Shown: positions 21,149 to 63,072 of the stretch, piece after piece | How positions within the stretch are numbered: the first letter of the stretch is position 1 | Layout of the letters: each line of letters opens with the position of its first letter | Assembly (NCBI RefSeq): GCF_000721265.1 | Contig: NZ_JOFZ01000006.1 | Span: 248,001 to 312,000, forward strand | From: Streptomyces sp. NRRL F-5126 | GTDB taxonomy: Bacteria > Actinomycetota > Actinomycetes > Streptomycetales > Streptomycetaceae | Length of the DNA stretch: 64,000 nt | Direction of reading: 5' to 3' | The notes under the pieces: generated by a model | Seen by the model: the letters and a program-made list of their open reading frames with translations, nothing else | The model's database searches: none | What the model was told of the DNA's origin: nothing | Translations under genes and position numbers: made by a program

Positions 21149-21160
21149 CTACGCGCGTAG
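21149..21160. promoter_or_regulatory. Nucleoside-regulon palindrome, pnp promoter
   Basis: Exact CTACGCGCGTAG, 12 bp before the TAGGCT -10 (21173-21178). It covers the expected -35 position, so a bound protein would block RNA polymerase. Confidence 0.75.
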
Positions 21161-21185
21161 GGCCGGAGCGGCTAGGCTCCCCCGT

Positions 21186-22019
21186 GTGAACGCATCTGCT
21201 ACTCAGGCCACCGCCGACGGGCCCCTCGACCCCTATGCCGCAGCGGACCGTGCCGCCGCGCGGCTGAGCGAGCTGTCCGGGGCCGACAGCCACGACCTCC
21301 TCCTCGTACTCGGCTCCGGCTGGGCGCCCGCCGTCGAGGCGCTCGGCGCACCCGAGGCGGAGTTCCCGATGGCCGACCTGCCCGGCTTCCCGCCACCCGT
21401 CGTCGAGGGCCAGGTGGGCACCGTCCGCTCGTACGTGGTCGGCGGCGGCAAGCGCGCGCTGGTCCTCCTCGGCCGCACGCACCACTACGAGGGCCACGGC
21501 GTGAGCGCCGTGGTGCACGGCGTGCGCACGGCTGTCGCCGCGGGCTGCAAGACGGTCGTCCTGACCAACGGCTGCGGCGGTCTGCGCGAGGGCATGCGCC
21601 CGGGACAGCCGGTGCTGATCAGCGATCACATCAACCTCACGGGCGTCTCCCCCGTCATCGGCGCACGCTTCGTCGACCTGACGGACCTGTACTCGCCTCG
21701 GCTGCGCGCCCTGTGCAAGGAGATCGACCCGGCGCTCGAAGAGGGCGTGTACGCGATGTTCCCCGGGCCGCACTACGAGACGCCCGCCGAGATCGCCATG
21801 GTCCGGGTCATGGGCGGCGACCTCGTCGGCATGTCCACGGTGCTCGAAGCCATCGCCGCGCGCGAGGCGGGCGCAGAGGTGCTGGGCATCTCGCTGGTGA
21901 CGAACCTCGCGGCGGGCCTCAGCGGCCAGCCCCTCAACCACGAGGAGGTCATCCAGGCGGGCCGCGACTCGGCCAAGCAGATGGGCGCCCTCCTGGCGCG
22001 CGTGCTCGACCGCGTCTGA
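21186..22019 (+). CDS. deoD: Purine-nucleoside phosphorylase (trimeric, class NP-II)
   Basis: Splits purine (deoxy)nucleosides with phosphate into base and (deoxy)ribose-1-phosphate. The 277 residues hold the trimeric-PNP motifs: VLGSGWAPAVEAL (phosphate loop), GRTHHYEGH, VLTNGCGGLREGM, the GPHYETPAEI segment, MVRVMGGDLVGMSTVLEAIA and SLVTNLAAG with the base-binding Asn. TAGGCT ends 7 nt before GTG 21186 with no Shine-Dalgarno, so translation is probably leaderless. The promoter carries the CTACGCGCGTAG palindrome. The mutase gene that uses its sugar product follows 153 bp downstream. In mycobacteria the homologue is called deoD or punA. Confidence 0.93.
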   Translation: MNASATQATADGPLDPYAAADRAAARLSELSGADSHDLLLVLGSGWAPAVEALGAPEAEFPMADLPGFPPPVVEGQVGTVRSYVVGGGKRALVLLGRTHHYEGHGVSAVVHGVRTAVAAGCKTVVLTNGCGGLREGMRPGQPVLISDHINLTGVSPVIGARFVDLTDLYSPRLRALCKEIDPALEEGVYAMFPGPHYETPAEIAMVRVMGGDLVGMSTVLEAIAAREAGAEVLGISLVTNLAAGLSGQPLNHEEVIQAGRDSAKQMGALLARVLDRV

Positions 22020-22172
22020 GGCCGTTCCGACGCGATCCCGACGCGATCCCGACGCGAAAACACCCGCGCACGCGCGCGTGCCGTGCGCGTCGGGGCCGTG
22101 GGCGCCGGCGCACCGTGGGCGCCGCGCCGCGGAGCTCGTACCGTAGTTGATTTCCCGCAGGGAGGACCCATC

Positions 22173-61929: not shown

Positions 61930-61935
61930 CAGCGG

Positions 61936-63000
61936 TCACGGGGTGGTCTTGACCTTGACCTTGCCGTCGACGATCGACTGCTTGGCCGCGTCGATCTTCG
62001 ACTTGATGTCGTTGATGAACCCGCCGCTGTAGGTCAGCGAGACGCCGTTCTTGGCGAGCGAGTACGTGTTGGTGCCGGTCAGCGGCTTCTTGTCGTGGAC
62101 CGACTTGACCAGGTCGTACACGCCGACGTCGACATTCTTGACGACGGACGTGAGGATCGAGGACTTGTACTGCGACAGCGAGGGCTGGTTGTACTGGTCG
62201 GAGTCGACGCCGATCGCCCAGGTGCCCTTCTTGCCGTGGACGGCCTCGATCGAGCCCGAGCCGGACGAGCCGGCCGCCGCGAAGATGACGTCCGCGCCCT
62301 TGTCGAGCATGCCCTGCGCGGCCGCCTTGCCCTTGTCGGGGCTCGCGAAGCCGGAGGTGTCGGAGCCGTGCGACAGGTACTGCACGTCCACCTTGATCTT
62401 CGGGTTGGTGTCGTGCACGCCCTGCACGTAACCCGCCTGGAACTTCTTGATCAGCGGCACGTCCACACCGCCGATGAAGCCCACCTGGTCGCTCTTGGTC
62501 TTCAGCGCGGCGGCGACACCGCCGAGGTAGGAGCTCTCCGCCTCGGTGAAGACGATGCTGTCGACGTTCTTCGCGTCGACCGAGGAGTCGACGATGCCGA
62601 AGGTCGTGTCCGGGAACTTCGCGGCGGCCTGCTTCATGGAGTTGGCGTAGGCGTAGCCGATGCCGACGACCGGGTTGTAGCCGGCCTGCGCGAGCTGCGA
62701 GAGGCGGTCGAGGCGGTCGGCCTCGGTGTCCGTCGTCTTCGCCGTCAGCTCCTTGACGGAGCCGCCGAACTGCTTCTTGGCCTTGTCGATACCGCGCGCG
62801 GCCGAGTCGTTGAAGGAGTGGTCACCACGACCACCGACGTCGTAGGCGACGCCGACCTTGACGCCGCCCTTGGCACCGGAAGCGCTGGAGGAAGCGTCGT
62901 CCTGTGCCTTCTGTTCCGACGTGCTGCCGCAGGCGGCGACAGACAGCGCGAGCGCGGCGGAGGCTATGCCCGACGCGGCGATCCTGGTTACCCGGCGCAA
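61936..63000 (-). CDS. BMP-family nucleoside-binding lipoprotein
   Basis: 354 residues. A Sec/lipoprotein signal (RRVTRIAASGIASAALALSV, lipobox AAC-G) puts it on the outer face of the membrane. The Bmp/PnrA fold is shown by VGVAYDVGGRGDHSFNDSAA, YNPVVGIGYAYANSMKQAAA, FIGGVDVPLIKKFQAGYVQG and WAIGVDSDQYNQPS. PnrA-like proteins bind purine and pyrimidine nucleosides and hand them to the ABC importer encoded next. TTG start with GAAGGGA 8 nt upstream. The promoter region has a degenerate copy (TAACGCGCGTAG) of the regulon palindrome. Confidence 0.92.
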   Translation of the reverse strand: MRRVTRIAASGIASAALALSVAACGSTSEQKAQDDASSSASGAKGGVKVGVAYDVGGRGDHSFNDSAARGIDKAKKQFGGSVKELTAKTTDTEADRLDRLSQLAQAGYNPVVGIGYAYANSMKQAAAKFPDTTFGIVDSSVDAKNVDSIVFTEAESSYLGGVAAALKTKSDQVGFIGGVDVPLIKKFQAGYVQGVHDTNPKIKVDVQYLSHGSDTSGFASPDKGKAAAQGMLDKGADVIFAAAGSSGSGSIEAVHGKKGTWAIGVDSDQYNQPSLSQYKSSILTSVVKNVDVGVYDLVKSVHDKKPLTGTNTYSLAKNGVSLTYSGGFINDIKSKIDAAKQSIVDGKVKVKTTP

Positions 63001-63060
63001 GAGGGTGGTCCCTTCAAACTGACCGAAGCGCCTCTTCCGGCGCTGGTTTCGCGGCGATCG

Positions 63061-63072
63061 TAACGCGCGTAG
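63061..63072. promoter_or_regulatory. Degenerate nucleoside-regulon palindrome, BMP promoter
   Basis: TAACGCGCGTAG differs from CTACGCGCGTAG in two bases of one arm. It lies 61-72 bp before the BMP start codon; TACGAT on the minus strand overlaps it as a possible -10. Confidence 0.6.

Follow-up and report, generated by a model that had tools for sequence, protein, structure and literature searches.

Introduction

In Bacillus subtilis, a single repressor, PurR, governs purine biosynthesis together with the genes for the uptake of purine bases and nucleosides. In Escherichia coli, PurR, CytR and DeoR act at palindromic operators that lie over pur promoters and promoters of the deo/cdd/add type. 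In Streptomyces, the purine supply acts on the pools of guanosine triphosphate and of guanosine tetra- and pentaphosphate, (p)ppGpp, and through them on antibiotic production and differentiation (PMC6627660, in the accessible part). The element considered here is a 12-bp palindrome, CTACGCGCGTAG, found in 64,000 nucleotides of Streptomyces sp. NRRL F-5126 (positions 248,001 to 312,000 of contig NZ_JOFZ01000006.1, assembly GCF_000721265.1), a stretch referred to below as the window. Judged by sequence comparison, the palindrome is probably the operator of one transcriptional repressor that controls a purine and nucleoside regulon throughout the Streptomycetaceae. Regulons with a palindromic operator are of a well-known kind; the present member appears to be undescribed.

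The Palindrome in the Window and in the Genome

Exact copies of CTACGCGCGTAG start at 21149, 25669, 44905 and 61801, and a re-scan of the window agrees with the first-pass annotation of this DNA that no further copy is present in the 64 kb. The first copy (21149..21160, plus strand) lies 12 nt upstream of the -10 box of pnp, the gene of purine nucleoside phosphorylase (21186..22019, plus strand; Pfam PNP_UDP_1). The second (25669..25680, plus strand) lies 1 nt upstream of the -10 box TATGCT of deoC, encoding deoxyribose-phosphate aldolase (25694..26653, plus strand; Pfam DeoC), downstream of which follows an aldehyde dehydrogenase gene (26656..28125, start approximate, plus strand; Pfam Aldedh). 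The third (44905..44916, plus strand) precedes, by 4 nt, the -10 box TAGATT of add, encoding adenosine deaminase (44933..46075, plus strand; Pfam A_deaminase). The fourth (61801..61812, minus strand) is located upstream of the -35 box of a set of minus-strand genes for a nucleoside ATP-binding cassette (ABC) importer, cytidine deaminase and pyrimidine nucleoside phosphorylase. These comprise the importer ATPase (60136..61770 as an open frame, with the true start near 61720; Pfam), two ABC permeases (57717..60209, open frames 59003-60646 and 57714-59756; Pfam BPD_transp_2), cdd (57271..57720, start approximate; Pfam) and deoA (55985..57300, start approximate; Pfam). Gene calls around the sites were based on guanine-plus-cytosine content by codon position and on inspection of the proteins, supplemented in part by Pfam.

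The four copies are the only ones in the whole genome (7,184,383 bases in 167 contigs), in which the reversed pattern does not occur at all. Markov models of order 1-4 built from the window give a chance expectation of 0.43-0.77 copies per 7.18 Mb, so that four copies in 64 kb are far above chance. As the first-pass annotation had noted, the copies stand in promoters. They lie beside or over the -35 and -10 boxes, and these positions suit the action of a repressor. In pnp, deoC and add, a -10 box of the form TAxxxT, read directly, ends 6-7 nt ahead of the start codon, and the transcripts of these three genes are probably leaderless.

A fifth site precedes bmp, which encodes a nucleoside-binding lipoprotein similar to PnrA (61936..63000, minus strand; Pfam Bmp). 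This variant, CTACGCGCGTTA (63061..63072, minus strand), differs from the palindrome at two positions, and its last two bases open the -10 box TACGAT. Two-mismatch matches as such show no enrichment: six matches within two mismatches were found in the window against 5.8 expected. The site at 63061, proposed at the outset, is nevertheless real: of 19 distinct bmp promoters, that of the window among them, 18 carry this very 12-mer and the 19th is one base away from it. In the bmp contexts shown, the TA that ends CTACGCGCGTTA begins a -10 box TAAGCT, TACGCT, TAATCT or TACGAT; both mismatches arise because the end of the 12-mer overlaps the TA of this box. Another two-mismatch match, CTGCGCGCGAAG at 52938, was rejected as a site, given the chance level of such matches and its position inside a called reading frame; it is most likely due to chance.

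Conservation among the Streptomycetaceae

The promoter sites recur in related genomes. Among 17 other genomes, whose regions were placed by the motif or the DeoR-type gene described below and cover the genes in part, the pnp promoter carries the exact site in 11 of 15 and a site within one mismatch in 14 of 15; the corresponding figures for deoC are 11 and 16 of 16. For add, the exact site was found in 10 of 11 genomes, and the eleventh (G550) has one beyond the scanned stretch. Across loci, the 12 bases are constant and the flanks divergent, with a nearly fixed distance to the pnp and add start codons; the loci of this alignment were collected through the exact motif, which makes their perfection a matter of construction. 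CTACGCGCGTAG has the marks of an operator, being one and the same palindrome ahead of functionally linked genes, rare elsewhere and conserved beyond its flanks.

Within the genus, all 150 genomes, the present one included, contain 2-6 exact copies each (573 copies in total versus 69 of the reversed control); the motif outnumbers the control in 149 of them and ties with it in one. At the level of the family, CTACGYRCGTAG is present in 199 of 200 genomes and in 16 of 17 genera, with 0-3 control matches per genome. In a sample of the phylum, exact matches occur in 22 of 396 genomes, namely every one of the 12 from the genus plus 10 from outside it. These ten, out of 384 non-genus genomes, have one copy each, and they were rejected as regulon sites: a tblastn search with the window proteins, covering up to 1.5 kb on each side, returned one 29% identical ABC ATPase (L056). 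The motif was thus found neither at many unrelated promoters nor missing from the orthologous promoters of relatives, the two outcomes that had been named in advance as damaging to an operator.

Some occurrences lie outside this pattern. Genome G621 holds 29 matches to CTACGNNCGTAG, many of them paired 17 or 34 bases apart, and these probably represent a repeat family outside the regulon. In four genomes, an exact 12-mer was also seen at the very beginning of the coding sequence of an adenosine deaminase paralogue that shares about 60% identity with the add product of the window (L032, L034, L042, L055), where it is either a chance match or a genic operator. This paralogue and the genes of two long regulator-like proteins (L068, L090) were set aside, as the 12-mer lies inside coding sequence. 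That the motif as a whole is due to chance, or is a promoter element that recurs with no regulator behind it, is hardly credible: it could draw on a few exact copies inside genes of other genomes, such as those four at the N-terminus of the deaminase paralogue, and is opposed by the copy numbers, the controls and the conservation.

Further Genes behind the Motif

One mismatch off the palindrome, 11 places exist in the genome of NRRL F-5126. Three intergenic ones were kept as regulon sites: L005 ahead of a purine-type permease gene (Xan_ur_permease), L011 ahead of a gene for a nucleotidase-type protein (5_nucleotid_C, Metallophos) and L013 ahead of purS-purQ. The others were set aside, six because they are located in called genes (L006, L008, L009, L012, L014, L015) and two because they are intergenic ahead of a secreted protein and of rpoB (L007, L010).

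The purSQL site is widely kept. The best match lies within one mismatch at 78 of 80 loci and within two at all 80, whereas palindromes with a shuffled half reach a mean of 0.15 loci and a maximum of 3. It stands at a nearly constant distance ahead of the -10 box. The 80 loci are the best 80 of 577 confirmed and lean towards near relatives (78 are titled Streptomyces, one Streptosporangium nondiastaticum and one Actinobacteria bacterium). The permease was matched in 25 of 28 genomes; all 22 orthologues of at least 66% identity have a site within one mismatch, against a control mean of 0.06 and a maximum of 2 of the 29 loci scored. Scoring covered 29 of 30 loci, G537 (63% identical) being the unscored one, and the seven loci without a site are 54-65% identical.

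A further class belongs to an operon of pyrimidine degradation, the genes of which, by reading, encode a nitrilase-type amidohydrolase, an aminotransferase and dihydropyrimidinase. Here CTACGTGCGTAG or CTACGGGCGTAG, both one mismatch off, occur in 13 of 13 promoter regions shown (11 places), a count to be read with the fact that all these loci were fetched through the motif. The site lies, by reading, downstream of the -35/-10 pair. Ahead of purN-purH, the exact core was found in G549 and G550, which represent two genera, and a nucleotidase gene adjoining a GNAT-type gene has an exact site in G135 and a one-mismatch site in G013. The 14-mer TCTACGCGCGTAGA, allowing up to one mismatch, has 53 sites in seven genomes and none for the control; by reading, 41 of the 53 are at regulon genes (G000 6/7, G013 6/8, G124 7/10, G541 7/7, G548 7/7, G549 4/4, G550 4/10).

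These results widen the role that the first-pass annotation had given to the motif, the operator of a repressor dedicated to nucleoside catabolism. The operator part of that proposal is borne out by conservation in relatives, rarity elsewhere in the genome and a geometry suited to repression. The restriction to catabolism was too narrow, since the site also stands ahead of genes that make purines de novo or degrade pyrimidines, of a purine-type permease gene and of nucleotidase genes.

A Proposed Common Repressor and the Evidence against It

The repressor would occupy sites that overlap or adjoin the -35 and -10 boxes and thereby block RNA polymerase; in the pyrimidine-degradation operon, it would bind just after the transcription start. 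Repression is the mechanism suggested because the sites lie over or next to these boxes, or shortly downstream of them. One protein would bind all classes of site, and a metabolite signal would release it. Release would then allow nucleoside import and breakdown, purine-base import, pyrimidine degradation and purine synthesis. With one site common to import, salvage and synthesis, it would be sensible for the signal to report a lack of purines or the presence of free ribose phosphates. Phosphoribosyl pyrophosphate (PRPP), ribose-1-phosphate, ribose-5-phosphate and deoxyribose-5-phosphate may be put forward as candidates, a guess from the logic of the pathway.

Several observations weigh against a single repressor of such breadth. 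The family genome without the core motif (G545) showed, at the places examined, off-consensus sites only, CTACGCGAGTAG at deoC and CTACGCGCGTTA at pnp. The permease match is missing in three of 28 genomes, and the best permease matches in G135 (54% identical) and G540 (59%) have no site. All pyrimidine-operon sites break the central CG, and they could belong to a second, related protein. Twelve of the 53 14-mer sites are elsewhere than at regulon genes, three of them in called reading frames and six in G550. Among 28 LacI loci and 26 DeoR-type promoters, the search for a regulator gene preceded by a consistent full copy of the site gave none.

Four of the twelve outlying 14-mer sites are at or before genes of putative nucleases, Exo_endo_phos proteins (L338, L350; Pfam), a GmrSD_C gene (L341) and a look-alike (L339), and such sites would fit the regulon. 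At the last two (2540 in L339, 2743 in L341), a 14-mer carrying one mismatch runs across the start of the gene, which is of the GmrSD_C type and encodes an N-terminus like a signal peptide.

Site Versions at Individual Promoters

The promoters of the catabolic genes mostly carry perfect palindromes, and purS, the permease, bmp and the pyrimidine operon have conserved off-consensus versions. The purS site has exactly one mismatch in 76 of 80 loci, two mismatches in two and none in two. On a tree of these loci, at least 30 changes of site state and at least 17 changes of mismatch position are required, counts obtained without a shuffled control; between perfect and imperfect sites, two changes suffice. 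The permease site has one mismatch in all 22 orthologues, at position 10 in 21 of them. The central CG is kept in 80 of 80 purS sites and in 21 of 22 permease sites.

Which version a promoter carries may set the strength of its control. It is also quite possible, although we lean against it, that the off-consensus versions, most of all that of purS, result from overlap with promoter boxes and not from a tuned affinity for the repressor. In the bmp site, both deviating bases coincide with the TA of its -10 box, and the varying purS positions 4, 5 and 8 fall, as far as the geometry can be read, at the expected -35 box. The odd base of the permease site, by the same kind of reading, is outside both boxes, and the purS site changes often yet keeps exactly one mismatch nearly throughout and is seldom perfect. 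For purS, either selection holds the affinity low or the overlapping -35 box demands a mismatch.

Candidate Regulators

It is possible, if doubtful, that the regulator is of a family other than DeoR or LacI, for example the PucR-type protein of the pyrimidine operon or a protein of the MarR, GntR or TetR family. A PucR-type gene is the third of this operon in G013 and G124 (L334 from 5313, L335 from 5469; Pfam for G013/L334), and, lying behind the site, it would in that case be autoregulated. In G631 and G542, however, the third gene is, by reading, that of dihydropyrimidinase and not of a PucR protein.

A tentative identification, which we rather doubt, is the DeoR/GlpR-family protein encoded in the window itself (13817..14842, minus strand), a protein with HTH_DeoR and DeoRC domains. 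It might sense ribose or deoxyribose phosphate, or PRPP, through a domain resembling ribose-5-phosphate isomerase. All 26 family genomes searched encode the protein, the 25 versions from other genomes being 70-90% identical, and its gene is near pnp in the regions where both are visible. Residues 1-60 have a mean identity of 99.9% over 25 orthologues, compared with 88% in the sensor and 17% in the tail; as a yardstick, the helix-turn-helix (HTH) of the LysR protein adjoining add is 65-97% identical in six comparisons. A DNA-binding domain this close to invariant is expected of a protein that reads a fixed operator. The nearest solved folds to a structural model of the protein are the E. coli DeoR sensor, followed by eIF2B subunits and ribose-5-phosphate isomerases; the DNA-binding part of the model is of low confidence. 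In two protein searches (best 120 of 1963 and best 120 of 1851 matches), every named organism is of a genus that we take to belong to the Streptomycetaceae, which parallels the spread of the motif.

Other features speak against this protein. Its promoter has no site within two mismatches in the ~360 bp upstream in 26 of 26 genomes, which extends to relatives what the first-pass annotation had remarked for the window. It fails the NCBIfam equivalog model of E. coli DeoR (71 bits against a cut-off of 244) and is nearer to AgaR (178 bits, cut-off 260), with 33% identity to AgaR versus 28% to DeoR. The operators of the DeoR family are not known to resemble CTACG. The protein also occurs in G545, with its off-consensus sites, so that its presence is not discriminating, and it has six weaker relatives in its own genome. 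SCO4920 of Streptomyces coelicolor is presumably the same protein. A network module of S. coelicolor centred on SCO4920, a DeoR protein, has been described, nucleoside genes being unnamed in the accessible part of that paper (PMC3224704).

Two further observations concern this gene. Its 5' region (upstream of 14842, minus strand) is strongly conserved in the 26 genomes, with GTTAC...CGTGTTCGC and an GAACAACTTC-like stretch further up; this region, which has no CTACG motif, may contain some other control element. The last ~75 residues of the protein diverge freely among the 25 orthologues, and the 16-row consensus ends in ERARVADLRRR.

A LacI-family protein encoded elsewhere in the genome, acting as a functional analogue of PurR, is an unlikely regulator. 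A gene of this family with an operator in its own promoter is usual, not obligatory. The LacI matches in the genome of NRRL F-5126 number 28, of which 27 are above the cut-off, with loci of ~3.1 kb each. The first-pass annotation had suggested binding tests with LacI or GntR regulators carrying the motif in their own promoters. No full site within two mismatches stands in a LacI promoter, by reading, and matches at that level occur at three of the 28 loci (L189, L197, L199), where they fall within adjacent called genes or at their starts. Half-sites were found in two of 20 LacI promoters with a placeable HTH, which is about chance. LacI proteins with an arginine in the TVSR motif favour, in an alignment of familiar operators, a G that is absent from the half-site. 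A weak hint in favour is the LacI gene adjoining a glnR-like gene (L197; relatives L364, L371), in which a half-site CGCGTAG lies over its own -10 box in three of three genomes. A central CG is the rule for LacI-family operators (PMC2978694, in the accessible part). The resemblance noted at the outset holds for the nucleoside, purS and permease sites and breaks down at the pyrimidine-operon sites. Precedents also exist in other organisms, where the LacI-family proteins PurR, CytR, UriR, AdeR and HpxR control purine or nucleoside genes (PMC4052901, in the accessible part).

The operator reading may be carried further, to a master repressor of the whole family, of a protein type new to purine control (at best guess the DeoR-type protein, with its sensor resembling ribose-5-phosphate isomerase). 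Through a single operator, it would tie the de novo making of purines to the uptake of purines and nucleosides and to the breakdown of nucleosides and pyrimidines. Selection would keep the operator versions a single step short of perfection, and these versions would set the strength of each branch. This fuller picture is speculative and improbable as a whole.

Comparison with Known Systems

No description of the operator was found in open-access papers, subscription papers and databases such as RegPrecise being outside the scope, nor was a transcriptional regulator of the Streptomyces pur genes found in the open-access papers. In the accessible parts of that literature, CTACGCGCGTAG occurs in two papers on DNA structure only and TACGCGCGTA in no paper on regulation. 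One study mentions a purine gene set, and a regulator is unnamed in its accessible part (PMC11538686).

A 12-bp operator fixed in 199 of the 200 family genomes sampled makes its regulator findable. The site versions found in nature form a ready series in which the effect of operator mismatches on repression could be measured.

The regulon resembles that of B. subtilis PurR in placing synthesis and uptake under one repressor, with PRPP as a plausible signal. It differs in its operator and in including nucleoside catabolic genes and pyrimidine degradation. As with PurR and CytR/DeoR of E. coli, which belong to the LacI and DeoR families, palindromes lie over pur promoters and promoters of the deo/cdd/add type; there, however, biosynthesis and catabolism are split among several regulators with other operator sequences, whereas here one motif serves both. 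XdhR of S. coelicolor is likewise a Streptomyces repressor of a purine-salvage operon, but it is a TetR-family protein acting on xdhABC and actinorhodin regulators, and the genes of the present regulon are unnamed in the accessible part of its description (PMC6627660). NupR of Bacillus thuringiensis is, according to the available excerpt, similarly a regulator of nucleoside uptake, although it belongs to the GntR/HutC family and to another phylum (PMC9430930).

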